From a virus: a stretch of 25,945 nucleotides of DNA. The notes under the pieces are model-generated. The model did not search any database. It was not told the DNA's origin and saw only the letters and a program-made list of their open reading frames with translations. The stretch is taken from IMG/VR virus record IMGVR_UViG_3300036770_003270, positions 1 through 25,945 of that record; one strand, given 5' to 3'. Made by a program: the position numbers and the translations under genes. Below are positions 2,336 to 21,334 of this stretch, piece by piece. Every line of letters begins with the position of its first letter. The stretch's first letter is position 1.

Positions 2336-2357
2336 ACTTGTTTTTATTTTAACTTTC

Positions 2358-2388: not shown

Positions 2389-2393
2389 CTATC

Positions 2394-2950: not shown

Positions 2951-2959
2951 AAAAAGAGA

Positions 2960-3336: not shown

Positions 3337-3456
3337 CTGATCATTGTCCTTATTATAAATAGGACTTACTTTTTTCTTCTTATTTGTCTTGATCGGCTGG
3401 TAAGGACGCAGTTCCTCTTCGTAGCGATCTAGATCTTGCAAATGAATTTTACCCAT
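3322..3456 (-). CDS. 44-aa basic small protein
   Basis: A short frame from ATG 3456 to TAA 3322 that encodes 44 residues: MGKIHLQDLDRYEEELRPYQ, then PIKTNKKKKVSPIYNKDNDQ and LDRN. It is hydrophilic with a basic KTNKKKKV patch and no recognised domain. It starts eight bases inside the end of the glycosyltransferase gene upstream, the same overlap as at 13663/13670 and 17417/17424, which supports it. Its 3' end contains the promoter for the next gene. A function cannot be inferred. Confidence 0.5.
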   Translation of the reverse strand: MGKIHLQDLDRYEEELRPYQPIKTNKKKKVSPIYNKDNDQLDRN

Positions 3457-4636
3457 TTGTTTTGGAATTAATTAAAGTATTCTGGTATTCGTTCATCTGA
3501 ACGATCTCTACTACCATATTACCGAGTTGGAATCGTCCAGGTTCTCCGTACTGTTTAATAATATGAGGTAGCTGTTGAATGATCTGGAAGTCATGGTTCA
3601 TAAACATATCTCTATCTACTTCTAAAAGAATCTCGCAATTCTTTTCATTATCGTAGGGTTTGATTCTTTCTGACAGGCTATAAGAAGTATTTGCCTGCTC
3701 TTTAGCAATGTACTCTGGTGCAATTAAGTTGTAGTCTTTAATGTAAATAGTATCACACCACGGTTCTAATAGTTCTAAGAAAGTAGATGTTCCTGCTTCA
3801 AGTATGATTCCAATATTGTACTTAGGAGTGATGACTGGTTTCATTAACGGGTCATGCTGTACAGGAGTACCCCATTTGCGTATAAAGTTACGCATATTTT
3901 TTTCAGTAGTATACAGCCACTCTTGTGAGTTTTTTCCTGCAGCACCACCGGCATGTTTGTTAAATCTAGATCCTCTAGAAGTAAAATGGTATACTAGAGC
4001 ATCCCAGCTCTGCAGGACTTGATACCCGTTAAGCACAAATCTATTAAAAAGATCGGAATCTTCTTTTGACTGAGGAGCGAATAGTTCATCGTGTCCTCCT
4101 ATAGCTAAGAAGTCTTCTTTGTACATACACCAGGGAGCAAATATACCTTCAGTTACTCTATCTTGCTTTAGCTTCTCACTCTGCTCATACCAGATCTGAT
4201 GATCAAACTCATTAGCTTCTATTCCGTAGTTGCGGGTAATCTTTTCTGGACCTACTGGATGAAGGGGAGGTTCTACTCTGGTAGCAGATACAACTGTACC
4301 TCTTTTTAAATGCTTAAGAATATTCTTATCAAAGTCTTTGCATACCACCATATCGGCATGGAAAGCCATAATAACATCGGTACGGGCCATCTCAATACCT
4401 TTATCAAACATACCTACAATCCCGATGCGTTCAGGTCCTGGATTGTGATATGTGATTAGGTATTCATCCTGGACTTGCTGTGAAGCAATCCATTCAGTTG
4501 TGCCGTCTGTGCTTGCATCATCTAATACCAGTACCTCATGTCTAGTATCTAGATCACGAATAGACTTGTAAGCTAATTGTAGAAACTCTAAGTTGTTCCT
4601 AGAGGGAATAACAAAAGTTATTTTAGTTGAATTCAT
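3449..4636 (-). CDS. GT2-family glycosyltransferase with extra C-terminal domain
   Basis: 395 residues. The N-terminal 240 residues form a GT-A, family 2 transferase: ITFVIPSRNN at residues 6-14, nucleotide-binding LVLDDASTDGT around 37-46, a DXD-like AFHADM at 91-96, and an acceptor/base region with GGHDELFAPQSKEDSDLFNR. Such enzymes move a sugar from a nucleotide sugar to an acceptor in the cytoplasm. The last 140 residues (from about MKPVITPKYNIGIILEAG) are not part of the core and could be a second small domain that selects the acceptor. It has no membrane segment. A promoter ends six bases before its ATG, so it may also be expressed apart from the rest of the locus, of which it is the last transferase. 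Confidence 0.85.
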   Translation of the reverse strand: MNSTKITFVIPSRNNLEFLQLAYKSIRDLDTRHEVLVLDDASTDGTTEWIASQQVQDEYLITYHNPGPERIGIVGMFDKGIEMARTDVIMAFHADMVVCKDFDKNILKHLKRGTVVSATRVEPPLHPVGPEKITRNYGIEANEFDHQIWYEQSEKLKQDRVTEGIFAPWCMYKEDFLAIGGHDELFAPQSKEDSDLFNRFVLNGYQVLQSWDALVYHFTSRGSRFNKHAGGAAGKNSQEWLYTTEKNMRNFIRKWGTPVQHDPLMKPVITPKYNIGIILEAGTSTFLELLEPWCDTIYIKDYNLIAPEYIAKEQANTSYSLSERIKPYDNEKNCEILLEVDRDMFMNHDFQIIQQLPHIIKQYGEPGRFQLGNMVVEIVQMNEYQNTLINSKTNG

Positions 4637-5342
4637 ATGTACTAAATATACGTAATAACCTCTCCGGTACCAACTTGTATTTTTCTAACTTTGTAATGGT
4701 TTCGGTTGAGGGCTTAAAAGCAACAACCTTTGGAGAGTTTGCTCGTGCTAACCTTTCATCTAACCCAGTCATTCCTATGTTGTAATCATAAGGTACCTCT
4801 GTAATAAAGTCTCTAAGCTGCTCTATGTTTTGATTGTAGAGCAGATTGAATATGTTCTCATCTCCAATCTGAAGTAGAGTAGGATGTGAATCGTTAGATT
4901 CAATAAAATCTTTACAAAGCTGCCAAAAAGGCAGGCTTGTTGGTTTTATAAATAAGCTTCCGGTGTTCCACTGTGTAAAGTTTATATACTTACACGCTCC
5001 AATCTCTCCATCAAATTCTGGTAAGGTCATTGAATAGGTCTGCCAGTCATCGAAGTCATGAAACCAGAACGGTTCTCCTATATGCTTGTAGTAAATTAAC
5101 TCCCAGATACCTAATAGCTTATTAAAGTACTTATTATACGTACACTCGTGAATGCTTTTAATAATTTTAACTTCCCTATACTCAAATGGTAGGTTGGTAA
5201 GAATAATAATATCAGAAGGTTCCCATCCTAACTCGATACTGTTATCAATTTGAGCTTTAAAATATTTAAACAGTTCTGCTTGGTGCCATTCTTTTCCATA
5301 TGTACCTCGGACAAAGTCCTGAAAGATCATTACGTTTTTCAC
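4623..5342 (-). CDS. putative glycosyltransferase (GT-A, DXD)
   Basis: 239 residues. The features that suggest a GT-A transferase are a parallel alpha/beta N-terminus (MIFQDFVRG, then IIILTNLPFEY), a DXD-type FWFHDFDDW with D96, D98 and D99, a later GSLFIKPT and GDENIFNLLYNQ. The last two recall the NxGxxxF and DQ-type motifs of GT8-like proteins. I therefore read it as a divergent transferase using a metal-bound nucleotide sugar. It overlaps the epimerase upstream by four bases and the next transferase by 14, so it is part of the same operon. No membrane segment. The family assignment is tentative; a hydrolase is unlikely. Confidence 0.6.
   Translation of the reverse strand: MKNVMIFQDFVRGTYGKEWHQAELFKYFKAQIDNSIELGWEPSDIIILTNLPFEYREVKIIKSIHECTYNKYFNKLLGIWELIYYKHIGEPFWFHDFDDWQTYSMTLPEFDGEIGACKYINFTQWNTGSLFIKPTSLPFWQLCKDFIESNDSHPTLLQIGDENIFNLLYNQNIEQLRDFITEVPYDYNIGMTGLDERLARANSPKVVAFKPSTETITKLEKYKLVPERLLRIFSTYEFN
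4643..4673 (-). promoter_or_regulatory. Bacteroidetes-type promoter inside the glycan locus
   Basis: Minus strand TTG (4673-4671), 20 bases, TATATTTA (4650-4643), then GTACAT and ATG 4636. It lies inside the 3' end of the 4623-5342 coding sequence. It can drive the last transferase and the small genes below it separately from the main locus. Confidence 0.7.
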
Positions 5343-6175
5343 AGCACACTTTTTATATAATCTTCTAGTTCTCTTCTAGGATCCCATCCCAGTACCCACT
5401 TTGCAGTTGAACTTGTGTTGAGAGTGTCTCTAGCCTCTCCGGGCTTAGCATCGGTATAGATAGGTTCAATACCAAACATCTTAGCTACTTCATTAACCGA
5501 GTGATTCTTTCCTCTTCCTAATTCAAATTCAAACCCCTGTACTTCGTTCTCCATAATCAGGATAAGAGCATCAACGATATCGTCGACATGGGTGAAGTCT
5601 CTGCGCTGTTCGCCATCGCCGTAAATGTAACAGGGTTCTCCTTTCTCGATATTATTAAGCCATCTTCCAATTAAAGTAGTATAGCCTCCTTCTAGAAGCT
5701 GGTGAGGTCCGTAAACATTATAAAAGCGAGCAATAGTAGCTTCTAATCCATAATGCTTTCGGTACAGCTCAATAATCTCTTCTCCGATATCTTTTGAGAA
5801 GGTGTAAGGGTTCTTAAACTTACCACTGTGTTTAGAAGAAGAACCTCCATAAATAACAGGCACTTGAGCTCTAGCACACCAATCAACCAGCTTCATAGTA
5901 CCTAGAGCGTTTACTTCAAAATACTCTTTAGGATTTAGAAACGAAGGCTGTATGCGAGCAATAGCTGCCATATGAAAGACAAACTCAGGACTGATCCAAG
6001 TATAGTCTGTAATATCTCGGAGATCGTATTCCAAGTATTCACAGCCTTCTATGTGATTGCTTTTTAGTCCTGTGTTGTAGTTGTCAATCGATACTACTTG
6101 ATGACCTTCTTTGAGAAGCCTTTTAACTAAATTTGTACCTACAAAGCCTGCACCGCCTGTAACTAATACTCTCAT
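5339..6175 (-). CDS. NAD-dependent sugar-nucleotide epimerase/dehydratase (extended SDR)
   Basis: 278 residues. Rossmann motif VTGGAGFVGTNL with G7-x2-G10-x2-G13, Asp31 at the end of strand 2 (SIDNYNTG), the HMAA segment at 68-71, Ser112-114, and the catalytic Y124-x3-K128 in NPYTFSK. Later motifs include ARFYNVYGPHQ and RDFTHVDDIVDAL. This is the extended SDR family of GalE-type 4-epimerases and dehydratases, somewhat short (about 280 rather than 310-340). It probably converts a nucleotide sugar, for example at C4, for one of the neighbouring transferases. The substrate cannot be told by eye. It overlaps both neighbours by four bases. Confidence 0.9.
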   Translation of the reverse strand: MRVLVTGGAGFVGTNLVKRLLKEGHQVVSIDNYNTGLKSNHIEGCEYLEYDLRDITDYTWISPEFVFHMAAIARIQPSFLNPKEYFEVNALGTMKLVDWCARAQVPVIYGGSSSKHSGKFKNPYTFSKDIGEEIIELYRKHYGLEATIARFYNVYGPHQLLEGGYTTLIGRWLNNIEKGEPCYIYGDGEQRRDFTHVDDIVDALILIMENEVQGFEFELGRGKNHSVNEVAKMFGIEPIYTDAKPGEARDTLNTSSTAKWVLGWDPRRELEDYIKSVL

Positions 6176-7092
6176 AATTCTATTTGTTTTAAAAATACTT
6201 CTTCACAATAAAGTTCCTGATAGAGTTCTTTTGCTTTTATAGAACATTCATCATAAAATACCCTGTCTGTTTGTAATTGACCTGCTAGCTTTCTAGCCTG
6301 TAAGACATCTCCTCTCTTAACTGATAGTTCTGGGAATAAATCTCTCTGAGTATTAATATCGTTATATCCTATGCAAGGTACTCCAAGGTAAGCACAGTTC
6401 AAAGGGAACTGTCCAGCAGATGCTTGATAGGTCTGTACGCCGTACCTGCATTTAGAAAGCTCATACATAAAGTCTTTCCAGACCATCCATGGTAAATAAT
6501 CTACTCCGTTATTCTCTTCTCCAGCTTTGAACTTACCGCTCTTGAATCCTACCATCGGTAATTCAAATGAGCTACCAATCACCCAAGCATCAAAGCCTCT
6601 GTAGGTTGTATGCCAGTTACCGGCTACAAATACTTTGTCTTCTTTCTCTGTTGCTTGAGTAATTACGTCTGTGATCATTAATGTAGGAAGCACTTTAGCT
6701 TGCTTGCCTGTAATGCCTGTGAAATATGGAACGTCTATGTCGTTGTGACATAAGACAGCATCAGCAGCATACAACTGCCGGTAGTACCATACCATTGCTG
6801 GATAGGATTCGTCCTGCCAGTCCCAGTGGGTACTCTCCTGCATTACATAAACCTTATCAGCTACTTCTCTTACTTTCTCTATTAAAGGAAAGTTTACCTG
6901 TGCTAAATACTCTCTGTTCTTTTCCTTAGGAACAATTACAATAGCTATATCCTGATGCTGGGTTGGTAGTTGATTAATTGGATAATGTACAGCATCTAGA
7001 GCACAGATCCAAGCCTGGTCTGTTCTCATGTTAGGATTATCTCTTGAGATCTTTCCTGAGTATCCTCCTTCAGTTATGAATGCTATTTTCAT
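6172..7092 (-). CDS. putative GT-B glycosyltransferase
   Basis: 306 residues. The fold appears to be two Rossmann-like halves: KIAFITEGGYSG and IAIVIVPKE at the N-terminus; a second half from about KVFVAGNWHTTYRGFDAW followed by CRYGVQTYQAS and FPLNCAYLGVPCIGYND. The last stretch has the form of the donor-binding loop of GT-B enzymes (P-x-N/x-E-A-x-x-x-G-x-P-x-I), but the two glutamates of the GT4 EX7E motif are not present. It could be a divergent transferase or a sugar-binding relative. The four-base overlaps on both sides put it in the glycan operon. No membrane segment. Confidence 0.55.
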   Translation of the reverse strand: MKIAFITEGGYSGKISRDNPNMRTDQAWICALDAVHYPINQLPTQHQDIAIVIVPKEKNREYLAQVNFPLIEKVREVADKVYVMQESTHWDWQDESYPAMVWYYRQLYAADAVLCHNDIDVPYFTGITGKQAKVLPTLMITDVITQATEKEDKVFVAGNWHTTYRGFDAWVIGSSFELPMVGFKSGKFKAGEENNGVDYLPWMVWKDFMYELSKCRYGVQTYQASAGQFPLNCAYLGVPCIGYNDINTQRDLFPELSVKRGDVLQARKLAGQLQTDRVFYDECSIKAKELYQELYCEEVFLKQIEL

Positions 7093-7658
7093 ATGTGCTG
7101 TAGGGTTGTGTAGTAGTTTGGCACTTGAGGTTGAAAGTATGAGACTTTACAATCAAATAAAGACTCATCTAAATAAGCTCTTCCACCAGCACCGCTAATA
7201 TATTCAGTAGCATCTAATGCTCTGCATATATCTGCTAGTCTCTGACTGGAGCTAGTTGTTATGTTTAGCTCTGAACTTAATATCATCGGAGTAGTAATGT
7301 TTAATGCCTGTCTGCAGTACTCAATAGAAGCTAAATTAATATCAACTAAACGATTACTACTGTAGATCTTTGAGAGATCCTTCTTAAATGTTGTTTGTAA
7401 TTTATTTGTTATAATTCTTCTCCATTTAGGATTAGAACTAACAACTACCTTATTGATTGACTTTGTATTCGCTTTTGGTTCTACTTCAACTGTAAACCAT
7501 TCATCAACTCCATTTGAGTTTAGAAACTTATTTCTGTTTTGAAAGTTATTCTTTGTATACTGAACGTCATCAAGTACAACAAATAGGTCTGCTGCTTGCA
7601 TCTTCTGAAAGAAGCCAAGGTACGGAAAATGTTCTGGTTGATGTATTGATACCCTCAT
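7089..7658 (-). CDS. WbqC-family protein
   Basis: 189 residues from the chosen start. The N-terminus MRVSIHQPEHFPYLGFFQKM, then ADLFVVLDDVQYTKNNFQNR and WFTVEVEPK, is the pattern of the WbqC family (Q-x-x-x-F/Y-P-x-x-G-F-F, then D-x-x-V-x-L-D-x-V-Q-F, then NRN). WbqC proteins occur in O-antigen and other surface glycan clusters, often near DegT aminotransferases; their precise reaction is not settled. The longest frame begins at 7676, but ATG 7658 forms a four-base overlap with the stop of the aminotransferase upstream and places the conserved motif at residue 1, so I use it. Pairing with a DegT-like gene fits known neighbourhoods. Confidence 0.85.
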   Translation of the reverse strand: MRVSIHQPEHFPYLGFFQKMQAADLFVVLDDVQYTKNNFQNRNKFLNSNGVDEWFTVEVEPKANTKSINKVVVSSNPKWRRIITNKLQTTFKKDLSKIYSSNRLVDINLASIEYCRQALNITTPMILSSELNITTSSSQRLADICRALDATEYISGAGGRAYLDESLFDCKVSYFQPQVPNYYTTLQHI

Positions 7659-8341
7659 ACTATGATTGACACCCAATCTATTTTACCAATATACGAATTA
7701 ACTTCCGGGCAATCAACTCCATCTGTAATTTTATGCAGAGGAGTGTAAGGTTCTCTTTTAGACTGTTCGGTGTAATACATTCCTCTTAACCAGGCGCTCT
7801 CTTGACCAATTAACTTTACTCCGGCATTCTTTAACTCTTGAGCTAATTCAACTCTTCTGTTAAACTTCTTCTCTATAAGTTCAGGCCAGTGTTTAATATC
7901 TGCTGGGGGTAGGTCGACTTGCTCATCTAAGAATAGAACTCCTCCTCCGTTAAAGTCTAGCCACTTACTCTTATTTGTAGAAGTAACTACAACATCGGCA
8001 TTCGCTCCTAAGTTAGGTAGACCATGACATTGGCTAAGATCTTCAATGATCTTTAGATCTGTTGTATTACGAATCATCTCTACACTAGCTCTAATACCGA
8101 ACATATGAGGTACAATTACTGTATCAGCATCAGATGCTTTGAGTGTAACCTCCTCAGGAGATATCTGCAAGTCCTTGTTACAATCTACAATAATAGCTTC
8201 ACATCCAGCAAGCCATACTGCTGCTAGAATATCTGTGCAGGTATAAGTTGGAATGATAACTCTCTTTGACTTTAAATGCTCAAGAGCTTTTGTAAGAGCT
8301 TCAGTGCCTGATTGTAACTGATAGGCGTACTTCTTATACAT
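7655..8341 (-). CDS. short DegT/DnrJ-like PLP aminotransferase (no C-terminal domain)
   Basis: 228 residues. Aminotransferase landmarks are SGTEAL (11-16), VIIPTYTCTD (28-37), IIVDC (50-54), IIEDLSQCHG with Asp101, and TSTNKSKWLDFNGGG, in which Lys126 stands where the PLP Lys of the DegT/DnrJ/EryC1/StrS family should be (four residues before the Gly run). Such enzymes aminate keto sugars. Usual length is 370-400 residues; here the C-terminal small domain is missing, and the protein ends some 90 residues after the Lys. No frame remnant of the missing part is evident because the WbqC-like gene starts directly at the stop. It is either a minimal enzyme or one that has lost aminotransferase activity. 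Confidence 0.75.
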   Translation of the reverse strand: MYKKYAYQLQSGTEALTKALEHLKSKRVIIPTYTCTDILAAVWLAGCEAIIVDCNKDLQISPEEVTLKASDADTVIVPHMFGIRASVEMIRNTTDLKIIEDLSQCHGLPNLGANADVVVTSTNKSKWLDFNGGGVLFLDEQVDLPPADIKHWPELIEKKFNRRVELAQELKNAGVKLIGQESAWLRGMYYTEQSKREPYTPLHKITDGVDCPEVNSYIGKIDWVSIIV

Positions 8342-8991
8342 TAACGTACCATCTTTAGAACATCAAATGCCTCTGCGTACTTTACTCCAGCTTGAGTACC
8401 TCTGTACTTGGCCAGAGTTTCAATACCGTCTAAGATATCAAAGCCGTGTTGATTAAACTTCTGTATTTGACTATCATGTGCTTGACATCCGGCTAGCTTT
8501 GTTATTAATGTCTCTGTGATGTCAACGTAATAGTTTGCTACTGGATAGGTTGTTGTAATTCTAGGAAGAGGTACTTGCTCATAACAGAGAACGTTCTTTA
8601 CTAGTCTAGTAGCAGCCATTGTAGCTGATAGAGTATTGATATGGTCCTGGTGGGTATCCCCAGCCCAGTGAGTGTATACGAAGTCAATACCTCTCTCCTT
8701 AACTATTTTTTCAATAAAGCTAACTGACTCAGAATCAAAAGGAACTTTAGTATCTTGGAATGGTCCTAAGATTAGTTCCGCTCCTAATACATCTGCTGCT
8801 CTTTGTGCTTCTTGTTGACTGATGCTAGCATCTCTAGTAATTTCATTAGTATGAGCATCCTTTACATCGCTCTGAGTCATTACAAGTAGTGTGACTCTAT
8901 CACCACTATTGAGATGTTTTCTTAAAGTGCCAAAGCATCCGAATTCAATATCATCTGGATGTGCTCCAATTGCTAAAACATTATAAGGCAT
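8341..8991 (-). CDS. PIG-L/LmbE-family zinc deacetylase
   Basis: 216 residues. The N-terminal motif AIGAHPDDIEFGCFGTL carries H11, D13 and D14, and a second motif THWAGDTHQDHINT has H114 and H117. These are the zinc-binding residues and catalytic Asp of the PIG-L/LmbE family (N-acetylglucosaminyl-PI and related sugar deacetylases). Length is typical. It may remove an N-acetyl group from a sugar in a growing glycan or nucleotide sugar, producing a free amine. It shares 11 bases with the transferase upstream and one base with the aminotransferase below, so the three act in one operon. Confidence in the family is high; the substrate is unknown. Confidence 0.9.
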   Translation of the reverse strand: MPYNVLAIGAHPDDIEFGCFGTLRKHLNSGDRVTLLVMTQSDVKDAHTNEITRDASISQQEAQRAADVLGAELILGPFQDTKVPFDSESVSFIEKIVKERGIDFVYTHWAGDTHQDHINTLSATMAATRLVKNVLCYEQVPLPRITTTYPVANYYVDITETLITKLAGCQAHDSQIQKFNQHGFDILDGIETLAKYRGTQAGVKYAEAFDVLKMVR

Positions 8992-9949
8992 CTTTCCAAG
9001 ATTTAAATTTATAACCGGGGTTGAATAAATTAGCTAAGTTCATACTGCTTGCTTGATAAGCTCTCTTATACCAATCGTGCTGCTCTCTTAATAGTCCAGT
9101 ATTAGTAGAATCTATTCCAGCTTCTCCTTTTACCCTGTAACGTTTACTATGATGCTTTCTGTTATGTACTAGTAATATGTTTCTGATAACGTATTGAGGT
9201 ATGTTACCTAGTAACTTGTTTGTCATGTGCATCATAGCTGTATCTTCATGAACAAAGAACATACCCTTTGGTATATTAGCTCCTGCTTTAACTACCTCAG
9301 AAGAAATAACTAAACCACAACCATTAAACTTATGCTGTGGGAGTGTGAGTACTTCTAGCTCTTCTGTCTCATCGTTGATAGCATTCATCTCTGCTTCTGA
9401 CATAGTATAACGTAATGACCACCAGTTAGTAGTATCTCCTTCAATAAAAGGTTTATCTGTAAACTTAGGATGTTCTAGAGGTTTCCAGCTATCATCCCAC
9501 ATCTTACATCCTCCGAAGAAGGCTAGGTACTTAGGAGACTGTTGATTAACCTGTTGATGTAGTAAATCTAACACGGTAAACATTTGCTTAGGTGCGAGCA
9601 TATCCGACTCTCCCCATACCAGTACGTCAACTTCCTCACAGTACCTTTCATTAAATTCCCTTCTATAGTCGGCAATACTGTGTATATGGTTGTTAATATA
9701 TCTAACAGTAGTTTCAAATCCTTCTGCAGTGAGGGAGTAAATAACTTTGATTATATCATGATACACCTGTAAGAACTCTTCTGAAGTTCCTTCAAACTGT
9801 TCTAGCTGCTCTCCCATCACTACTGTAAAGTCTATCTTAACGTTTTCTTTAGAGTAGTTACTAACAGCGCTCTTTAAAGATGAAATGTACTCTGGTATAA
9901 TTTGTACTTCATACCATTGAACTAAACACCCTATTGCAAATTTCGTCAT
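8981..9949 (-). CDS. GT-A type glycosyltransferase (GT2-like)
   Basis: 322 residues. The N-terminus (MTKFAIGCLVQWYEVQIIPE) and IDFTVVMGEQ resemble a GT-A nucleotide-binding half, though the usual D-D-x-S is not clear. The motif DVLVWGESDMLAP (residues 108-120) is at the DXD position with E114 and D116. The later FNGCGLVISSEVVKAG, then FFVHEDTAMMHM, recalls the acceptor-side G-x-x-x-x-x-R and E-D motifs of GT2 enzymes. It is a soluble protein with no membrane segment. I regard it as a divergent family 2-like transferase. The start at 9949 forms a four-base overlap with the methyltransferase upstream. Confidence 0.65.
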   Translation of the reverse strand: MTKFAIGCLVQWYEVQIIPEYISSLKSAVSNYSKENVKIDFTVVMGEQLEQFEGTSEEFLQVYHDIIKVIYSLTAEGFETTVRYINNHIHSIADYRREFNERYCEEVDVLVWGESDMLAPKQMFTVLDLLHQQVNQQSPKYLAFFGGCKMWDDSWKPLEHPKFTDKPFIEGDTTNWWSLRYTMSEAEMNAINDETEELEVLTLPQHKFNGCGLVISSEVVKAGANIPKGMFFVHEDTAMMHMTNKLLGNIPQYVIRNILLVHNRKHHSKRYRVKGEAGIDSTNTGLLREQHDWYKRAYQASSMNLANLFNPGYKFKSWKDAL

Positions 9950-10458
9950 AAAATATATCCAGTATACTCATCTAAACTTTTCCAGGGCCTGTTAATGTAC
10001 TTTGACACCTCAACCATCAGCTCATATTCAGATTTTCGATTAATATCATCAAATATAAGTGGAACATCTGTATTGAACAACTCTATATGCTTTAAAAAAC
10101 CTCCTCTACCGAACATTCCATTTGGACCGTCTACTAAAATTAGATCGTAGTGCGCTGGTAGGCTATCTTTTAAAAACATTGGATCGTACCACCCTACCTG
10201 CCTTTCAGTATTCTCTCCAGGTAAGTTAGGGGCAGTCCACTCTTTGTCGTAGCTCTTTATAGGAGCAAAAATATACTCAGAGTTATATTTACCCACCCAT
10301 TCAATATAATTTTCAATAGAGTACATTTTATAATGTTGAGCTAGATACTTTGTACCTATGCCGCTACCGAGTTCTAAAATAGTAGAACCTTCTGGTAGAA
10401 TTTCTTTAATAAGATTGTAACAGGACTCTTGAATTGCCCATCCTCCTAGTTTATCCAT
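9946..10458 (-). CDS. class I SAM-dependent methyltransferase
   Basis: 170 residues from the chosen start. Motif I is STILELGSGIGTKYLAQ (residues 25-41), followed by YSIENYIEWVGKY (motif II acidic residue) and YDLILVDGPNGMFGRGGFL (motif IV-like). This is a Rossmann methyltransferase using S-adenosylmethionine. In a glycan locus it probably methylates a sugar hydroxyl or a terminal residue, which in some surface glycans caps the chain. The longest frame starts at 10515 and would overlap the upstream gene by 65 bases; ATG 10458 gives an eight-base overlap as elsewhere in the locus, although no Shine-Dalgarno precedes it. Confidence 0.8.
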   Translation of the reverse strand: MDKLGGWAIQESCYNLIKEILPEGSTILELGSGIGTKYLAQHYKMYSIENYIEWVGKYNSEYIFAPIKSYDKEWTAPNLPGENTERQVGWYDPMFLKDSLPAHYDLILVDGPNGMFGRGGFLKHIELFNTDVPLIFDDINRKSEYELMVEVSKYINRPWKSLDEYTGYIL

Positions 10459-12700: not shown

Positions 12701-12701
12701 A

Positions 12702-13670
12702 TTACCTAAGTTTTACTTTTATTTCTTCCGAAAGATCTGTCCACAGTTGATGATTACGTATATGTTTAGGATGAGAAAATTTATCAAAGAATTTAACAAA
12801 CCCATCTACTGTACTGATACGATTAGGTCTAATCGTAACCTCACTTCTTTCATACCTATCACATTCATCTAAGCCACGAGTAAACGCTTCCCAATATCCT
12901 ACCTGTCTTTGAAGCTGATCACATCTTAACTCTCTAAACTTACCTGGTCGGATCCAGGCATAGTGGTACGTAATGAGATCAGTTGGATACAGCATTCCGT
13001 ACCCGGTTACAGGGTTATGATAATCGTTGGACATAAAGTTTCTCAACATATTTAAATACTTTACTCCTCCTTTATCGTACCTAAAGCAGATCCTTCGAGA
13101 CATATAATTATTATCATGTTGATACTCCGGACCTAACCAGGGCTTAATACGATTTTTCTCAACGTACCAGAAGTTTTGCATATAGTCGATCCATATAGAT
13201 CTAAATCCTTCCCCGGGTTTAATCTGGGTAAGGTAGTGCTGTATTTCCTCTTTGGAGTTTTCATGGTGGAATACATCTCCTTCGTAAGGAAAGATGTAGT
13301 CACCTTCTTCAATTTCAATTCCTACTTCGCTAAAGTTAGTAGTGGCGGCAACGTAGCAATCTGTGGGGGACATATTTGCCCCATACTCCATTTCATTTAG
13401 AATAATTTGAACATCTGGGTGCTTTGTTTGAGCCTGCTCTACGATGTCTTTGAGCTGTGAGAAATCAAATCCTCGCTTACCTTCTCCGTTCAGGGTGTAC
13501 TTTTGTAACCACTCTCGGGTGAGGTACTTATTACCTTCTGTACCGGCAGGAAACATCCCTTCATTTATAATAATGACATCAGGACTAACCGTGTCAATAA
13601 TGTTAGGAATCTGGTGTTTTATTAAATGGCTTTCACAGAAAGTTGGAATGATGACTACTTTTTTACTCAT
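12702..13670 (-). CDS. GT2-like glycosyltransferase
   Basis: 322 residues. N-terminal MSKKVVIIPTFCESHLIKHQ, DVIIINEGMFP (strand with an acidic end), VQIILNEMEYGANM and DYIFPYEGDVFHH, where E130-G-D132 is at the DXD position. The order fits a GT-A/GT2-like transferase in which the N-terminal P-x-x-N/C-E is kept. The rest, with many aromatic residues (IDYMQNFWYVEKN, LITYHYAWIRPG), looks like acceptor-binding loops. No membrane segment. It overlaps the 70-codon gene upstream by eight bases. It is a moderately confident family call; the region after residue 180 shows nothing I recognise. Confidence 0.65.
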   Translation of the reverse strand: MSKKVVIIPTFCESHLIKHQIPNIIDTVSPDVIIINEGMFPAGTEGNKYLTREWLQKYTLNGEGKRGFDFSQLKDIVEQAQTKHPDVQIILNEMEYGANMSPTDCYVAATTNFSEVGIEIEEGDYIFPYEGDVFHHENSKEEIQHYLTQIKPGEGFRSIWIDYMQNFWYVEKNRIKPWLGPEYQHDNNYMSRRICFRYDKGGVKYLNMLRNFMSNDYHNPVTGYGMLYPTDLITYHYAWIRPGKFRELRCDQLQRQVGYWEAFTRGLDECDRYERSEVTIRPNRISTVDGFVKFFDKFSHPKHIRNHQLWTDLSEEIKVKLR

Positions 13671-13875
13671 TTTCTCTAAAAATTTCTATGCAAAGCACAT
13701 TCTTATCGTTAACCAGTATGTATCTTCCGTCCTTAGTGATTAGCTTAGTAAACTGTCCTTGTTTTACATACTCAGAGCTTACTGATTCAAAGGTTCTTTT
13801 TTCTCCGTGAATAAAATGAATAATCTGTGTCACCCATTCTCCTTGTCTCTTAATTGAAGATTCTAAATCTTTCAT
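13663..13875 (-). CDS. small hypothetical phage protein (70 aa)
   Basis: Unrecognised 70-residue protein. It reads as an N-terminal helix (KDLESSIKRQGEWVTQIIHF), a charged loop, then three short strands (FTKLITKDGRYILVNDKNVL) and CIEIF. It contains GEKRTFESV, and the next gene upstream has the similar GEKRTFDEA, which may be chance or a shared element. It sits between a transferase and another small gene inside the glycan locus, six bases after the stop of 13882-14304 and overlapping the transferase by eight bases. No link to glycan synthesis can be shown. Confidence 0.6.
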   Translation of the reverse strand: MKDLESSIKRQGEWVTQIIHFIHGEKRTFESVSSEYVKQGQFTKLITKDGRYILVNDKNVLCIEIFRENE

Positions 13876-13881
13876 AGATAC

Positions 13882-14304
13882 TTACTGCTCTCCTTCTATA
13901 ATGCCTTTAAAAGTAGCATCAATAGAATTTTTCATTCGTCCTCTACTCTCATTTGCTTTACGTAGACGAGCTTCGTTAACCATAAACTTCTCTAAAGTAG
14001 GTTCACCGTCTGTCTTAGTGTAGTAAGCATCGCCAACATCAAGGTCATTTACAATCAAAGTCTCAACGTCTTTTAGTAGTTTAGCTTCATCGAACGTTCT
14101 CTTCTCTCCTACATACTCATACCTACCTGTTGTATAAGTTTCAGTTAGGAGCTCTTCAAGCTTGATTCTAATCTCTGCAACAACACCTTGCTGGTGTGTG
14201 GCTTCCTCTAGTTTACCTTGCTTAGTAAAGTTATATTCTTTAATACGTTCGGTAATTAGTCGATCGAATAGAGCGCTGATAGTATCAATATTAGTTATTC
14301 TCAT
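13882..14304 (-). CDS. phage hypothetical protein, mostly helical (140 aa)
   Basis: 140 residues. The N-terminus ISALFDRLITERIKEYNF followed by a helix with HQQGVVAEIRIKLEELL resembles short helical proteins common in large T4-like phages (ALFDRLIxERIK pattern, role unknown). The middle has YEYVGEKRTFDEAKLLKDVE and the C-terminal part has NEARLRKANESRGRMKNSID. It overlaps the RfbH-like gene by four bases. It may be a misplaced core phage gene that has remained between blocks of transferred glycan genes. No catalytic motif is visible. Confidence 0.65.
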   Translation of the reverse strand: MRITNIDTISALFDRLITERIKEYNFTKQGKLEEATHQQGVVAEIRIKLEELLTETYTTGRYEYVGEKRTFDEAKLLKDVETLIVNDLDVGDAYYTKTDGEPTLEKFMVNEARLRKANESRGRMKNSIDATFKGIIEGEQ

Positions 14305-15590
14305 AATTGGAACTGTTTTACTACCTCTTCAATGTAATTAAAAACTTCTTCAGTGTAGTGAGGTGATGCACCTACAAAGAATACTTTATCTAAGACCTTA
14401 CTTGCTTCTGGGTAGTCTGCTACACTACCTAAGTGTCTATATCCCGGGTGTAGTAAGATATTACCTGCAAAATAGTTTCTAGTTTGAATCTTATTAGCCT
14501 CTAGATGTGCCACAAGCTTCTCTTTTACCTCTCTATTCTCACAGATAAATGGAGTACCGAACCAAGATACATCTGCTTTAGGCAGAGAAGGTACTCCTTT
14601 CACACCTTGAATGTTACCTGTAAAAATCTTTTCAATAGTCTGTTTAGATACTTTTCTATTTGCTTCAATCTCATCTACTCGGTCAAGCTGTACTAATCCA
14701 ATAGCTCCTTGCATATCAAGAGGTTTGAGGTTGTAGCCCATATTATCGAAGATGTACTTGTGGTCAATAATGCCATCGTAGCCTTCTAAGTGCTGGGAGA
14801 ATCTACAACCGCAGCTTCCATTTGGTAAAAGATTAGCGGCACCTACGCAGTAGCAAGCTCTACCCCACCATGAGTAACTCATGATAAGCTTTTTTAACTC
14901 AGCATCGTTAGTGCAGATCATACCTCCTTCACCTGTTGAGATGTGATGAGAAGGGTAGAATGAATTAGAGAATGCTACATAGTATTCATTTAGGTACTTA
15001 CCGTCCCATTTAGATCCTAAACTATCACAATTGTCACCAACTAACAGTAAGTTATGTTTCTGAGCTATCTCTAACAATCTATCAAAGTCAGGTGGGTTAC
15101 CTAGTACAGGCGATACAAAAATAGCTTTAGTACGAGGAGTAATCTTCTCTTCAATCTTATTAAGATCAAAGTTTAATGTCTCCCATTCAATATCGATAAA
15201 GACCGGTGTCAGTTTATTCTGATCAATAACCGAGATGGTGGTTGCAAAGCCTACAGGCGATACAATGATCTCATCTCCATCCTGCCAGTTGTATCTCTTC
15301 TTAAGAGCAGCAATCATAACTAGGTTAGCAGAGCTGCCGGAGTTGACCATGTGAGAGTGAGCAACATTAAACTTGCGGCTAAACTTACCTTCAAATCTAT
15401 TTACAGTCTCACCTGTAGTAACCCACTTACCATTTAAGAAAGTAAATAGGGCCTTAGTAATCTCTTCTGTACCCCAGTAAGGACCTGAGTACCAGACTGT
15501 GCTCTTACCCGGTTCGAACTTCTGTCCGTTGTAGACATAGCTTGGGAGATGATCTCCTACTAACTCTTTTATTTTTTCTAATTCAATCAT
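14301..15590 (-). CDS. rfbH: RfbH/E1-type PLP and [2Fe-2S] sugar 3-dehydrase
   Basis: 429 residues, the usual length. DegT-fold with NSGSSANLVMIAAL (83-96), GDNCDSLGSKWDGK with D186, and SNSFYPSHHISTGEGGMI, where the PLP Lys of aminotransferases is replaced by His (H215 by spacing). That is the hallmark of CDP-4-keto-6-deoxyglucose-3-dehydrase (E1/RfbH) and of ColD. It also keeps an iron-sulfur set: C188-x57-C246-x1-C248, then C260 and C262. The first spacing equals that of E1; the last gap is longer. It should remove the C3 hydroxyl of a 4-keto-6-deoxy sugar on the way to a 3,6-dideoxy sugar. An E3-type reductase partner is not in the window. A promoter lies six bases before ATG. Name is by motif only. 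Confidence 0.88.
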   Translation of the reverse strand: MIELEKIKELVGDHLPSYVYNGQKFEPGKSTVWYSGPYWGTEEITKALFTFLNGKWVTTGETVNRFEGKFSRKFNVAHSHMVNSGSSANLVMIAALKKRYNWQDGDEIIVSPVGFATTISVIDQNKLTPVFIDIEWETLNFDLNKIEEKITPRTKAIFVSPVLGNPPDFDRLLEIAQKHNLLLVGDNCDSLGSKWDGKYLNEYYVAFSNSFYPSHHISTGEGGMICTNDAELKKLIMSYSWWGRACYCVGAANLLPNGSCGCRFSQHLEGYDGIIDHKYIFDNMGYNLKPLDMQGAIGLVQLDRVDEIEANRKVSKQTIEKIFTGNIQGVKGVPSLPKADVSWFGTPFICENREVKEKLVAHLEANKIQTRNYFAGNILLHPGYRHLGSVADYPEASKVLDKVFFVGASPHYTEEVFNYIEEVVKQFQL

Positions 15591-15596
15591 ATAATA

Positions 15597-15627
15597 GTAA
15601 TATAAGAAATTGCTAGCTGTTTTGCAA
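15597..15627 (-). promoter_or_regulatory. Bacteroidetes-type promoter for the RfbH-like gene
   Basis: Minus strand TTG (15627-15625), 20 bases, TATATTAC (15604-15597), then six bases to ATG 15590. It occupies the only real gap (38 bases) within the glycan locus, splitting the locus into an upstream block (20166-15629) and a downstream block. Confidence 0.65.
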
Positions 15628-15628
15628 C

Positions 15629-16360
15629 TTAACTTAAAAGGGTTTTCATTTTTGTCAGAGACATACTAAAGTCTGTGGGGATTAACTTATCATGTACAAT
15701 TGTGGGTTCCACATTAGGACTAGTTTGTTTCGCTAACTGGTACATACTTTTTAATTCGGTACCTAGGTTTAATACTCCTGTAGCTTCTTTCTTAATAGCT
15801 TTTACAACTAAGCTACCTATTATATCTACGTAGTCAAAGTTACCTTCGTGATTAAGCCAGGCAGTAGAAAAGGGAAAAGGTCTCGGCTTATGTGTTGTCC
15901 TAATTAAGAGGTAGTTCTTACTTCTTAACTCTACATACCCGTCCGCCAGTAGCTTAGTATGTGCGTAGTGTGTAGCTTGGTGTACAGGTACATCTTCCTC
16001 TGTCGCTTCTCTTTTAGAGTTAGCATATACGTATGTCGTAGAAATATGTACAAGTTTTATTCCCCAGTAGCTACAGAAGTCTACCAGGTTAGCTACTGCT
16101 CTATAATTAACATCCCAATGCTTCTTTCTGTCGTTTGAATATGTCTCTGTAAAAGCTATGCAGTTGATAATCGTATCATACTTCGGAGTACCGGCTAGCT
16201 TACCAGATTGAGGGTCGTTGTACCAGTTTATAAATGTATCAAAATTAGAAGGATCAGTAATATCAAAATTATCCTTCTTTCTGCTAATAACGTCCCAGCC
16301 AGTTTGCCTGTGTAATTCTGCTCCTAGTAGTCCATCTCCTAATATAACAGTTCGTTCCAT
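15629..16360 (-). CDS. RmlD-like NDP-4-keto-sugar reductase (SDR)
   Basis: 243 residues. N-terminal nucleotide-binding VILGDGLLGAEL (G-x-G-L-L-G), YDTIINCIAFTETYSND, then VHISTTYVYANSKREATEED with the Thr/Ser catalytic region and HYAHTK with the Y-x3-K pair. These are RmlD (dTDP-4-dehydrorhamnose reductase) landmarks; RmlD proteins are about 290 residues, so it is somewhat short. It probably reduces the C4 keto group of a deoxy sugar, and in this place could act after the RfbH-like dehydrase. It directly precedes the promoter of that gene and abuts the GT2 gene upstream (stop and start adjacent). Confidence 0.85.
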   Translation of the reverse strand: MERTVILGDGLLGAELHRQTGWDVISRKKDNFDITDPSNFDTFINWYNDPQSGKLAGTPKYDTIINCIAFTETYSNDRKKHWDVNYRAVANLVDFCSYWGIKLVHISTTYVYANSKREATEEDVPVHQATHYAHTKLLADGYVELRSKNYLLIRTTHKPRPFPFSTAWLNHEGNFDYVDIIGSLVVKAIKKEATGVLNLGTELKSMYQLAKQTSPNVEPTIVHDKLIPTDFSMSLTKMKTLLS

Positions 16361-16987
16361 CTATAAAGTACTGTAATAAGCGTTCTGTCTTTCCTGTCTT
16401 TCGATATCTTTGTGATGTGTAAGACAGTACCCCTCTACCGCTGGAAGGAAAGCAAGTGACTTAAACCCGTTCAGGACCTCATGTACTCTATTTTCCCACT
16501 TAATGTAAGGACTTCTTTTGTAAATACGCCACTGATAGTCTGGGAAGTTTACCCATCCTTCCTCGTTTACATTCCATCTCCACTTCTGAACATGCTCTTG
16601 AGTCAATCCGGAAACTGTATTGATTCTAGGGATTCTTAGTACCTCTACATCGTTGGATTCCAAGATAATAGAAAGATTCTCCATCAGGTACGAGTTGGGC
16701 ATTTCATCAGCATCGATCTGGAAGATATAATCTCCCAAACAGGCCTCTGTTAGAGCATTCTTCATATTAGCAAAATGCCCATCAAAGTGATAGTGAATGA
16801 ATCTAAAAGGAGCAAATGTACTTTGAGATTGAGTTCTTAAATAATCCTCTACTGATTTAGTTCCGTTATTGGAATCGTAGAAGATAACTATTTCATCCTC
16901 TTCTCTTTTATTTTTAATTAAGAAAGGAAGCAATCGTTGTATCTCCACCAGCTCATTACAAACCGTAACTGCATAGCTTATTTTCAT
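16361..16987 (-). CDS. GT2-family glycosyltransferase (WaaE/SunS-like)
   Basis: 208 residues. MKISYAVTVCNELVEIQRLL, DEIVIFYDSNNGTKSVEDYL, then GDYIFQIDADEMPNSYLMEN with D92-A-D94-E95, and the C-terminal YQWRIYKRSPYIKWENRVHE, which resembles the R-x-F-R-x-x-x-x-x-x-x-W-x-x-x-V-H-E pattern of WaaE/KdtX and SunS-type small GT2 enzymes. These transfer sugars to a lipid A core or to peptide; here the acceptor is unknown. The protein is short and soluble. It overlaps the zinc-ribbon gene upstream by four bases. Confidence 0.85.
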   Translation of the reverse strand: MKISYAVTVCNELVEIQRLLPFLIKNKREEDEIVIFYDSNNGTKSVEDYLRTQSQSTFAPFRFIHYHFDGHFANMKNALTEACLGDYIFQIDADEMPNSYLMENLSIILESNDVEVLRIPRINTVSGLTQEHVQKWRWNVNEEGWVNFPDYQWRIYKRSPYIKWENRVHEVLNGFKSLAFLPAVEGYCLTHHKDIERQERQNAYYSTL

Positions 16988-17424
16988 CCCAACTCGTAAA
17001 AACCAATTACCTCTAACGCATCCATAAACTCTCTCTGAGAGAAGTGTTGAGCTCCTTTCATATCCATCTTATGAGTCTGTCCTTCAGGGTACTTGTGTTT
17101 CTCCTCTTGAAGGATAGTAGCTGCCTTAACAGCAGTCCATTTCCAATTCTCTTTAGTGCTGCCGTCAATAAACACCATTCCTTTAGCCGGGAGTGTTACT
17201 GTTGCAGGCATCCATACATGACCATCTTCGTCTTTGTGCAGAAGGTCTTTATAAAGTTCTGGTGAGGACTCTAAGGCGCTTTTTACAGCCTGGCTACCTT
17301 CTGTCATAACAGTTGAGGTAGTAAAGCCGCAACCCATACATAACCAGGTAGTTACCTGTTCGTTGATCTGCTGTTCATAGCAAGCGTTAGAGCCGCATCT
17401 TTTGCAATCAGTTAGCTTATCCAT
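16984..17424 (-). CDS. zinc-ribbon hypothetical protein (146 aa)
   Basis: 146 residues. The N-terminus has two Cys knuckles, C7-x2-C10 and C29-x2-C32, in the frame TDCKRCGSNACYEQ and WLCMGCGFTT, a classic zinc ribbon; a further Cys is at 15. The rest is alpha/beta with VWMPATVTLPAKGMVFIDGS and QHFSQREFMDALEVIGF. I do not know its function. It sits between two transferases and overlaps both (eight bases upstream, four downstream), so it is translated with them, but a zinc ribbon could equally bind nucleic acid. It may be a phage core gene carried along in the locus. Confidence 0.7.
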   Translation of the reverse strand: MDKLTDCKRCGSNACYEQQINEQVTTWLCMGCGFTTSTVMTEGSQAVKSALESSPELYKDLLHKDEDGHVWMPATVTLPAKGMVFIDGSTKENWKWTAVKAATILQEEKHKYPEGQTHKMDMKGAQHFSQREFMDALEVIGFYELG

Positions 17425-18727
17425 TGATCTTATTCAATTTAGGTAGATTTAATTTAGGCATTTCATTTGCTTTCTGCAACTTAGGAAGCTGCAAAGTTGG
17501 TAGCTTTAATTCAACTTGCTTAGCGAAGGTAGGTAGATTGCTTGAGAGAATTTGATCTAATTGCTCTGCCATCTTCTCCCAGCTAAAGTTTGTACGAGAC
17601 TTATACCCCTGTCTCTTTGCTAGCTCCGAGTACTTTTTGTAGTTATCAAACACCATTCGTAGAGCTGTAGCAGCTTCAGCGTCGCTAGGGGTGAACCATT
17701 CCGACTCGGCTAAGATCATTTGCTTCACTGTAGCGCTCTTATGTACATTTGTTAATGTTCCGTTAACTAAGTAGCAGAATTCTTTATCTAAAAAGTCAGT
17801 ATGCCCAGACCATCCTGATGCAATGATGGGTTTGTTCACCAGGCTAAACTCTAACAGGGGTCTTCCAAAGCCTTCGCCTTTGGTAAAGCTAACCATTGCC
17901 TTTACTTTAGGGTGATTGTAGAGATGATTAATTTCCTCATCCGACATCTCTCCATGAATCAAGTAAATATTAGGTAAGGTACCTTTTACAGTCTTTCTGA
18001 TATCATCGATCTTTTTTAGAAGCTGGTCTCTATCTAGAATTGATGCATTAGCTGACTGAGTTTTTAAAATAAGAGCCGGTTGATTCTTTTTATTCTTAAA
18101 TACTTCTAAGAATACTTTAACCATGTATCCAACATTCTTTCGATCTTGTCCAAAGTCACCTTGCAACCAATGTCCTACAAACAGGTATGCAAAGTCTTCT
18201 TTAACTGCTGAAAGGTCAAATTTAGAAGTAGTTGGGAAGTATTTTGTAATATCAACTCCTTCAAATAGTACCTCTACAGGTTTTTTAAGCTCTACTGTTC
18301 CTTTTACCTGTCCGTTCTCCTCTACATTAAATTTAGAACGCTCAAAGGTTTCTTTAGCATGCTGAGAGGATACTAGGTTAAGGTTCATTCTGTTTAATCC
18401 TTCAATCCAACTAGGATCACAGATTGTAGTCTCAATGCCGGCTGTAACACCGATGTTATAATCTCCTACTGCTTGAAACTCATTAGGAACTGTTACTTGA
18501 ATCCAAACATTAGGACGGGCTGTGATATTAGGAACGATTAGTGAGCTAAGTTCGTACTCGTTATGATCCTTTAAATATCCAAATCGAGTATTACCCCAGC
18601 GCTGACTTAGCACCTTTACATCGTACTTCTCTAATTTAAGAAGTGCTTTAACAAAGTCTCTTGATCTTGCTCCGTAGCCGCTATAAGTATCGATCGGGCA
18701 ACTAACTATAACTGAAATCTTATCCAT
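17417..18727 (-). CDS. GT4-family glycosyltransferase with Leu-Pro-rich tail
   Basis: 436 residues, GT-B fold. N-terminal YSGYGARSRDFVKALL is the G-rich acceptor-domain loop; in the C-terminal half, YLFVGHWLQGDFGQDRKNVG is followed by KGEGFGRPLLEFSLVNKPII, with E285-x7-E293 as the GT4 donor-binding motif, and by WSGHTDFL. GT4 enzymes transfer sugars from nucleotide sugars with retention. The core ends near residue 395. Residues 398-432 form an unusual tail with LPTF, LKLPTLQLPKL, MPKLNLPKLN, that is four or five copies of a short LPxL unit with Lys. It could mediate protein binding. It shares one base with the stop of the upstream GT4. Confidence 0.9.
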   Translation of the reverse strand: MDKISVIVSCPIDTYSGYGARSRDFVKALLKLEKYDVKVLSQRWGNTRFGYLKDHNEYELSSLIVPNITARPNVWIQVTVPNEFQAVGDYNIGVTAGIETTICDPSWIEGLNRMNLNLVSSQHAKETFERSKFNVEENGQVKGTVELKKPVEVLFEGVDITKYFPTTSKFDLSAVKEDFAYLFVGHWLQGDFGQDRKNVGYMVKVFLEVFKNKKNQPALILKTQSANASILDRDQLLKKIDDIRKTVKGTLPNIYLIHGEMSDEEINHLYNHPKVKAMVSFTKGEGFGRPLLEFSLVNKPIIASGWSGHTDFLDKEFCYLVNGTLTNVHKSATVKQMILAESEWFTPSDAEAATALRMVFDNYKKYSELAKRQGYKSRTNFSWEKMAEQLDQILSSNLPTFAKQVELKLPTLQLPKLQKANEMPKLNLPKLNKING

Positions 18728-20166
18728 TAGTAAATAACTGGGTGTTTAACGTATTTCTTTGGTAGGGCTTCTACTTTTAAGATGTCGTACTTAGTACGAG
18801 GAGTAAATTGTTCAAAGGCTTGAGTAACGTATTTAATAATGTTTCGCCCCATATTTTTAGCCGACATCATAGCTTCTTCTGATAGAGCCCATTCGTGACC
18901 TGCGAAGCCTCTTTCTTCTCTTTCTTCTTTTGTCATCAAATAAGCTTCCTGGATAGCTTTTGCAACATCTTCAGGTGCGCATCTGTCGTCGAAGATGTAA
19001 GGAGTCGGGACTGAGCCTACTAGCGAGATATTAGAAGGGAAGACTGGGATAGCCCACTTACCGTGCTTCTTATACGTACCTCTGTGGTTAGAAGGAATCT
19101 CAAACGAAGGAGTGTACCAGTTGCCGTTCTCATCTTCAAATCGCATTTGGTCTTGCATACCGCCGGTTACATTGCCGATAATCATAGTACCTGCCATCAT
19201 AGACTCAGTCAAGCTAAGTCCCCATCCTTCATTAGAAGAGATGAGCATGGATACATCCGCTAGGTTGTATAGCCAGTTCATCTGCTCAGCTCCTAATCTA
19301 TCTTGAGAGAAGAATACGTTAACGTAGGCTGGGTCGCAGATTGCATCTCTTACTGCTAGTAAGTCAGTTCCGTTTTGATCAACAGCTTGGGTGTGCATTA
19401 CAAGAGCGCATTTCTTTGCTTTCTCTTCTCCGATCATATCACAGAACTGTCTGTAAGATAGAATCACATCACCGGGTGACTTGCGTCGAATATTTCTTGA
19501 GTTCCAGAATACTACAAACTCAATCTCTTTTCCTTCAAAGATATTCTTTTTAAACTCTAGGTACTTGTCGTAGTTTTTATACTCAGGAGTGATTGGGAAG
19601 AAAAAATCTTCGTTGATGCCGTGAGGTACATACTCGATAATCTTTCCGTTAGCAGCCTCTTCTAATACAAGCCTGTTGATATTAACAGTCTGCTTTGAGA
19701 TACCCATTAATAAGTCACAGCATTCGTAATATGACTTATTATATAGGGGAGCTGGATAGTCATCCCAGATATTAAGATACATCAGAGGCATTTGCTGTCT
19801 GATCTCTCTTTCAATATCGTACAACCAGGTCCAGTATCTAGGATCGGTAAAGTGTAGGATAGCATCAGGTTTTTCAGTTCTAATGATCTCTCTAACGATA
19901 TCAGCTGTTCCGTAACCTGAAGTAGCGTATAATCTTACGTAAGCATCTTCAATTCCTGCTTGTTTACTAACATCAGCAGAAAGATCAAATGCTTTCTTTT
20001 CATCGGGGTGATTCATTGCACCTCCTAAATTAACCCAGTTAAAGTGGTGGGCTGTCTGTATTACGAGCTCTCTTGCCATAGTAGCGATGCCTGAATGCAA
20101 TCGCATATCATCTGAGAGCAGAAGAATCTTTTTTCGTTGATCCTTCGGCAAATAACCTTCTTTCAT
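18727..20166 (-). CDS. GT4-family glycosyltransferase
   Basis: 479 residues, GT-B fold. KKILLLSDDMRLHSGIATMA contains the N-terminal loop; AILHFTDPRYW and LMGISKQTVNINR lie in the acceptor domain; FVVFWNSRNIRRKSPGDVIL and SNEGWGLSLTESMMAGTMII lie in the donor domain, with E313-x7-E321 as the GT4 motif. It is the first gene of the glycan block and begins five bases after the ribbon-helix-helix gene ends. It is soluble. Its size and motif order suggest a full-length active enzyme. The donor cannot be named from sequence. Confidence 0.9.
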   Translation of the reverse strand: MKEGYLPKDQRKKILLLSDDMRLHSGIATMARELVIQTAHHFNWVNLGGAMNHPDEKKAFDLSADVSKQAGIEDAYVRLYATSGYGTADIVREIIRTEKPDAILHFTDPRYWTWLYDIEREIRQQMPLMYLNIWDDYPAPLYNKSYYECCDLLMGISKQTVNINRLVLEEAANGKIIEYVPHGINEDFFFPITPEYKNYDKYLEFKKNIFEGKEIEFVVFWNSRNIRRKSPGDVILSYRQFCDMIGEEKAKKCALVMHTQAVDQNGTDLLAVRDAICDPAYVNVFFSQDRLGAEQMNWLYNLADVSMLISSNEGWGLSLTESMMAGTMIIGNVTGGMQDQMRFEDENGNWYTPSFEIPSNHRGTYKKHGKWAIPVFPSNISLVGSVPTPYIFDDRCAPEDVAKAIQEAYLMTKEEREERGFAGHEWALSEEAMMSAKNMGRNIIKYVTQAFEQFTPRTKYDILKVEALPKKYVKHPVIY

Positions 20167-20354: not shown

Positions 20355-20394
20355 AGCCTTTATATTTTTATATACATATATAAATAGCTTGGAA

Positions 20395-21333: not shown

Positions 21334-21334
21334 T

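Follow-up and report, generated by a model that had tools for sequence, protein, structure and literature searches.

The locus and its genes

The stretch of DNA analysed here, called the window throughout, is an IMG/VR contig of 25.9 kb (25,945 nucleotides), a fragment of a large T4-like phage that is kin to Flavobacterium phage vB_FspM_immuto (NC_055915; immuto from here on). Its main feature is a near-gapless locus of about 17 kb, at positions 3449-20166, in which 21 open reading frames (ORFs), all on the minus strand, mostly encode glycosyltransferases (GTs) and sugar enzymes that would together build a glycan. This locus had been picked out in a sequence-only reading of the window, made by a model without database searches, and the coordinates and gene order given there were exact. 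The ORFs mostly overlap by 1-14 bases, with a largest gap of 38 bases, and the one 65-base overlap, between I and J, is probably a matter of start-site choice, with the start of I nearer 10458. From the upstream end, the genes are these.

U: 18727..20166, minus strand, GT4 glycosyltransferase, first of the invariant core; Pfam PF00534
T: 17417..18727, minus strand, second core GT4, after U
S: 16984..17424, minus strand, core orphan of 146 residues with a Cys-rich N-terminus
R: 16361..16987, minus strand, third core GT, a GT2; its end is the cassette breakpoint
Q: 15629..16360, minus strand, RmlD-like NAD(P) sugar reductase
P: 14301..15590, minus strand, RfbH-type 3-dehydrase, DegT fold, His at the pyridoxal phosphate (PLP) lysine position
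O: 13882..14304, minus strand, small protein that recurs in other cassettes
N: 13663..13875, minus strand, small protein present in immuto too
M: 12702..13670, minus strand, putative GT-A glycosyltransferase of an unlisted family
L: 11987..12700, minus strand, putative GT-A (QSDT motif), no library match
K: 11199..11999, minus strand, GT8-like paralogue of J with altered DxD
J: 10451..11209, minus strand, GT8 glycosyltransferase
I: 9946..10515, minus strand, methyltransferase-like (ELGSGIG)
H: 8981..9949, minus strand, putative glycosyltransferase family recurring among cassettes; GESD motif invariant
G: 8341..8991, minus strand, PIG-L de-N-acetylase; nearest NCBIfam is BshB1, under its cut-off
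F: 7655..8341, minus strand, half-length DegT-like aminotransferase
E: 7089..7661, minus strand, WbqC family protein
D: 6172..7092, minus strand, putative GT-B glycosyltransferase (weak)
C: 5339..6175, minus strand, SDR nucleotide-sugar epimerase/dehydratase
B: 4623..5342, minus strand, putative glycosyltransferase (FHDFDD motif), no library match
A: 3449..4636, minus strand, GT2 glycosyltransferase that closes the cassette in most relatives

A fixed core and an exchanged cassette

The order PD-(D/E)XK nuclease, V, U, T, S, R is near-invariant in 25 related metagenomic contigs and immuto, with T present in 36 of the 37 records tested and S in 26 related regions. On the 3' side of R there is a cassette of 4-17 genes and 3.6-13 kb (where both borders were seen, counting to the first flank gene), and in most genomes with the end reached it finishes with a family A GT2, followed by g8, g7, DksA and HNH. 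Across 26 genomes, 120 gene families were counted in the cassettes, of which 72 are confined to one genome; these numbers are approximate, the ORFs having been called mechanically and grouped by blastp and several cassettes being cut by the fetched stretch. Other cassettes bring in further methyltransferases, nucleotidyltransferases, a pyruvyl transferase, GT10, NeuB, UDP-galactopyranose mutase, and a dTDP-sugar isomerase. The window has the whole immuto-like arrangement, W-V-U-T-S-R, then the cassette, then the A-g8-g7-DksA-HNH flank, with the following borders.

V and PD-(D/E)XK nuclease W: 20172-20465 and 20395-21354, minus strand, conserved upstream border (20172..21354)
g8, g7, DksA-like, and HNH: 2960-3301, 2394-2798, 1949-2335, and 1302-1949, minus strand, conserved downstream border (1302..3301)

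Aligned at the nucleotide level, the window and its relatives show 72-81% identity across the upstream flank and core, with 77-81% in the core, and the alignments end at 16363, in the last codons of R, a breakpoint found with G005, G020, L092, L106, and immuto (the last at about 66%). DNA similarity returns in the downstream flank at 75-82% with G005 and G020, and between the two blocks there are only short patches. The immuto cassette is shorter, with 8 genes after R that are mostly different genes. The anatomy is that of a serotype locus with wholesale exchange. A phage glycan cluster as such is already known, and the new part is the combination of a fixed core and an exchanged cassette with sharp borders, an architecture that the sequence-only reading, right as it was about the locus, did not see from one sequence.

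The phage group

That the contig is phage-derived, as had been proposed, is borne out by synteny with the cultured phage immuto, and the lysis genes named with that proposal are a holin (21749-22165) and a GH19 endolysin (22167-22778). A bacterial chromosome segment was considered and rejected on the synteny of the window with this complete phage genome. Immuto, the closest cultured relative, has 160 kb and encodes a T4-type portal, major capsid protein, and tail sheath and tube; the window flanks and core are syntenic with its gp181-gp169 at protein identities of 53-68%. Remoter kin are Microcystis phage Mel-JY01 and Rhodothermus phage RM378. Hosts of window relatives suggest a phage group mostly of Bacteroidota, the host of the window being assigned via relatives and that of Mel-JY01 being as stated in its record. 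There are at least 598 U-encoding loci in the viral contig collection, and the prokaryote genome collection gave eleven U matches, all in metagenome-assembled genomes. A literature search found no open paper on the immuto glycan locus, and Nilsson 2020 (PMC7077304) makes no mention of immuto.

Core proteins

U and T each have the Pfam domain of GT4 together with its EX7E motif, which is invariant in alignments of 28 U homologues and 27 T homologues. By hhalign, T is related to U with a probability of 98%. The best PDB profile match of U is the chlorovirus protein B736L (E = 2.7 × 10−14), which T matches at E = 1.5 × 10−4. The DxD of R is likewise invariant in its alignment. U, T, and R are found in Flavobacterium and Microcystis phages, and U and R in RM378. 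Between the immuto and RM378 genomes, 14 immuto ORFs have a blastp match at E < 10−4, among which U ranks fifth by E-value, behind capsid, terminase, portal, and sheath; U therefore behaves as a core phage gene and not as a passing acquisition. The cysteines in the N-terminus of S are not all invariant. Its structure model is confident, with a predicted local distance difference test (pLDDT) score of 92, and finds no fold match in the PDB; the one BFVD match is an unnamed phage protein. In Mel-JY01, U is annotated as two ORFs (L006:13442-14933; Mel-JY01 83441-84932), so the gene may be interrupted or the record may have a sequencing error.

Transferases and sugar enzymes

Roughly eleven GTs had been counted in the sequence-only reading, of which six are well supported, two weakly, and three by motif only. 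Above the curated Pfam cut-off are A and R (GT2), J (GT8), and T and U (GT4). K and J are diverged paralogues (21% identity, E = 4 × 10−20). The DYD motif of J is DAS in K, losing the second Asp of DxD, and K may lack catalytic activity or act as a partner of J. The GT-B likeness of D is weak (profile E = 0.05). M matches nothing by sequence in Pfam, PHROG, or the PDB, its PDB profile search was empty, and its low-confidence structure model has GT-A enzymes as top matches (E = 0.016, probability 0.97). Acidic DxD-like motifs are present in B, H, and L, which neither libraries nor profiles support; the PDB profile search with H was empty. Profile comparison did not support a link of D with U, nor a GT-A kinship between R and either H or M. 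The likely transferases D, M, B, H, and L are identified by weak evidence or by motif only.

Among the sugar enzymes, library matches confirm the 3-dehydrase (P), reductase (Q), SDR epimerase/dehydratase (C), PIG-L protein (G), WbqC protein (E), and the aminotransferase-like protein (F), which is DegT-like and of half length. For the proposed methyltransferase I, the ELGSGIG motif is there but no library or Pfam match was found. P is closest to RfbH, the CDP-4-keto-6-deoxyglucose 3-dehydrase (E = 1 × 10−105, at 354 bits below the cut-off of 423), and has a His replacing the aminotransferase PLP lysine, in SFYPSHHISTGEGG.

Membrane proteins and base modification

The absence of any membrane protein from the locus holds up across 27 genomes, where 415 locus ORFs have 3 hydrophobic segments, all borderline, and 439 control ORFs have 50. 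The polyprenyl-phosphate initiating transferase family Bac_transf (PF02397) is found in 0 of 37 related records and the Wzx flippase family Polysacc_synt (PF01943) in 0 of 29, with bacterial controls positive for both. Judged by these two families and by the lack of membrane proteins, the locus is not of the Wzx/Wzy or ABC type; no separate search was aimed at Wzy, WecA, or ABC transporters. The proposal of a cytoplasmic, non-Wzx/Wzy glycan is supported by the lack of membrane proteins and because both of these lipid-linked-pathway families are missing from the relatives, and we infer cytoplasmic assembly of the glycan on an acceptor that may be soluble or membrane-bound.

Base-modification genes vary within the group. 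QueC occurs in 14 of 28 records, and immuto carries deazaguanine genes. A subgroup of relatives without QueC has a thymidylate synthase family protein of 214 residues (L208:13043-13687, L188:686-1321, L205:3654-4301) that matches T4 dCMP hydroxymethylase (E = 2 × 10−16) and thymidylate synthase (E = 9 × 10−17) about equally, and in which, by eye, the catalytic-site Asn is changed to Asp. It is a putative hydroxymethylase; with QueC in other relatives, a single phage group would include alternative base modifications. The complete genomes of RM378 and Mel-JY01 match neither PF00303 nor QueC. Glycosylation of hydroxymethyl bases should go with a hydroxymethylase, and the putative one is confined to a subgroup; the window, as a fragment, does not show its own base-modification or virion genes.

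Neighbouring genes

Lysis genes and the PD-(D/E)XK nuclease lie upstream of the locus, and HNH and DksA-like genes downstream. A gene with a match to DUF1599 (nucleotide modification associated domain 1), at window 21335-21694, adjoins the nuclease. Apparent signal peptides are seen on immuto gp015 (L008:12691-13422), immuto gp013 (L008:10527-11525), and the protein at window 23520-24620, and the domains among these three are cohesin with a type IX secretion (Por) C-terminal sorting domain, C-type lectin, and PA14, which suggests that surface proteins of the phage are exported by way of its host. A further protein near the lysis genes combines a Ser/Gly/Thr-rich linker with a conserved C-terminal domain, and its immuto copy, gp018, has a signal peptide. 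A CsgG-like reading of immuto gp017 was dropped for lack of a Pfam match.

Ser/Gly/Thr-rich protein, 3' part: 24617..25945, minus strand, orthologue of immuto gp018; candidate acceptor
Copies of this protein: window 24617-25945; L008:14444-15868; G005:85302-86849; G006:86342-87829; G025:74178-75596

The acceptor and competing explanations

Our best explanation, to which we give slightly better than even chances, is a glycan-assembly locus organized like a serotype locus, with a cytoplasmic core glycan made on a phage-encoded acceptor and a cassette that varies the outer sugars. U, T, and R would make an invariant linkage oligosaccharide in the cytoplasm of the infected cell, most likely on Ser/Thr of a fibre or another virion protein with Ser/Thr-rich repeats. 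The cassette enzymes would draw on host nucleoside-diphosphate sugars, convert some of them, and extend and cap the glycan; in the window, P and Q would probably yield 3,6-dideoxy sugars, and G, F, and E probably de-N-acetylated or N-acylated amino sugars. Swapping the cassette would put a different glycan on otherwise similar phages, with the possible benefit of a shield from host surface or defence factors, or of altered adsorption. The fuller version, in which the conserved cytoplasmic GT core glycosylates Ser/Thr-rich virion fibres and horizontally exchanged cassettes endow every phage with a surface sugar of its own, among phages whose hosts belong to several bacterial phyla, we put forward tentatively, at somewhat worse than even chances.

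The core GTs are kept across phages of Flavobacterium and Microcystis, with U and R also in the Rhodothermus phage, while the outer enzymes change, and a host-specific acceptor is therefore unlikely; a phage-carried acceptor explains the spread of the core more simply than the envelope glycans of three phyla would. The nearest solved relative of U and T belongs to a group of viruses that put glycans on their own capsid protein, which we counted toward a virion-protein acceptor. Strongly Ser/Thr-rich repeat proteins, many of them among virion genes, are found in immuto (gp101, ASYATTASY), G005 (GTTGTATQG), G006, G012 (PTISVTPTIS), G025 (GTSGSSGTSG), and Mel-JY01 (GSSGTSGTRG). Mel-JY01 also has an ORF of 1,227 codons (L222:4750-8430), annotated as an FkbM methyltransferase and including a T-like GT4 domain (E = 5 × 10−10), that lies between two collagen-like GSSGTSG Ser/Thr-rich proteins and beside a structural gene, a placement that suggests a virion-protein acceptor. 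The Mel-JY01 record annotates a prolyl 4-hydroxylase at 146571-147170.

Several points weigh against this explanation. The Ser/Thr-rich argument is weak, such repeats being widespread in phages and having been surveyed only in phages that carry the locus, and the acceptors proposed from the genes are candidate proteins only. S is a core member and yet an orphan of no assigned role, and no T homologue was found in RM378 by sequence. T is basic (isoelectric point 8.8, the other window GTs being acidic to near neutral), as membrane-associated transferases often are; soluble transferases could extend host lipid A-core or lipid-linked oligosaccharides via the host flippase and ligase.

Along that line, the enzymes would remodel the host surface, extending or replacing host lipopolysaccharide (LPS), lipooligosaccharide, or lipid-linked glycan through the host flippase and ligase, and so block the adsorption of competitors or progeny to infected cells or debris. 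It is the reading given for cyanophage clusters, which are likewise polymorphic between relatives (PMC7824862), cassette enzymes such as the RfbH-like protein and WbqC are typical of O-antigen synthesis, and lipid-carrier transferases need not span the membrane. We nevertheless consider it rather unlikely, given that phages share the core pair or trio although their hosts belong to different bacterial phyla and should differ in envelope glycans, and that the related records searched have no lipid-carrier initiating transferase or flippase. There is no integrase among the annotated immuto genes, and long-term seroconversion is therefore unlikely as well. The product might instead be a secondary metabolite or an oligosaccharide, free or secreted, or the target might be an exported phage protein and not the virion. 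This would suit the exported proteins near the lysis genes, where the Ser/Gly/Thr-rich one is conserved (window, gp018, G005, G006, and G025), and the second cluster of a cyanophage was interpreted as secondary metabolism (PMC7824862); the locus, however, has no export or efflux gene, RM378 and Mel-JY01 have no homologue of that Ser/Gly/Thr-rich protein in the stretches compared, and we judge this improbable.

The sequence-only reading had preferred a virion protein or DNA as acceptor, and of the two the virion protein stays the best candidate. An oligosaccharide on modified phage bases would protect against restriction, and phage GTs do decorate DNA with a variety of glycans (Pyle 2024, as cited in PMC12619734); a subgroup of relatives has the putative dCMP hydroxymethylase, and the deazaguanine genes of immuto speak of active base chemistry. 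DNA is disfavoured because the core is unchanged whether it is accompanied by deazaguanine genes, by the putative hydroxymethylase, or, as in RM378 and Mel-JY01, by neither, and DNA would be an unusual target for some ten variable transferases along with dideoxy and N-acyl sugars. We hold glycosylation of DNA to be very improbable.

Comparison with known systems

Serine-rich repeat adhesins of streptococci are O-glycosylated in the cytoplasm, with no flippase, by an adjacent GT4 pair, GtfA/GtfB, and further GTs. The likeness to U and T is an analogy only, Gtf1 (4pqg) being a very weak sequence match of U (E = 0.026). Virus-encoded glycosylation is found in chloroviruses such as PBCV-1 and NY-2A, which glycosylate their own major capsid protein (reviewed in PMC4691112). 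NY-2A B736L, a putative glycosyltransferase, is the closest solved relative of U and T, but the chloroviruses are unrelated to the phages here, infect eukaryotes, and have a known acceptor, the major capsid protein. Mycobacteriophage GTs glycosylate capsid and tail tube (Freeman 2023, as cited in PMC12619734); these phages have one or a few GTs and no exchanged cassette, and we liken them by description, not by sequence.

The statement in the sequence-only reading that phages normally encode one to a few such genes was too strong, as the cyanophages P-SSM2 and S-SSM7 have large clusters (PMC3037559; PMC7824862). The clusters of T4-like cyanophages have been interpreted as LPS remodelling or possible stuffer DNA (PMC3037559; PMC7824862). 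A tblastn search with U, T, and R against 50,697 phage records matched no P-SSM2-type cyanophage, Mel-JY01 being the sole cyanophage match. If our explanation is true, surface-sugar variation, so far mainly a bacterial property, joins phage biology, with a bearing on adsorption, host defence, and phage typing. What these clusters target has been asked since the cyanophage genomes, and the culturable pair of vB_FspM_immuto and Flavobacterium sp. LMO8 makes the matter testable by standard glycoproteomics. Like the clusters of P-SSM2, S-SSM7, and S-SM2 (Sullivan 2010, PMC3037559; Iyer 2021, PMC7824862), the locus has many GTs, epimerases, and sugar enzymes and is polymorphic; unlike them, it occupies a single fixed position, joins an invariant core to a cassette whose borders are exact, and is found mainly in phages of Bacteroidota.

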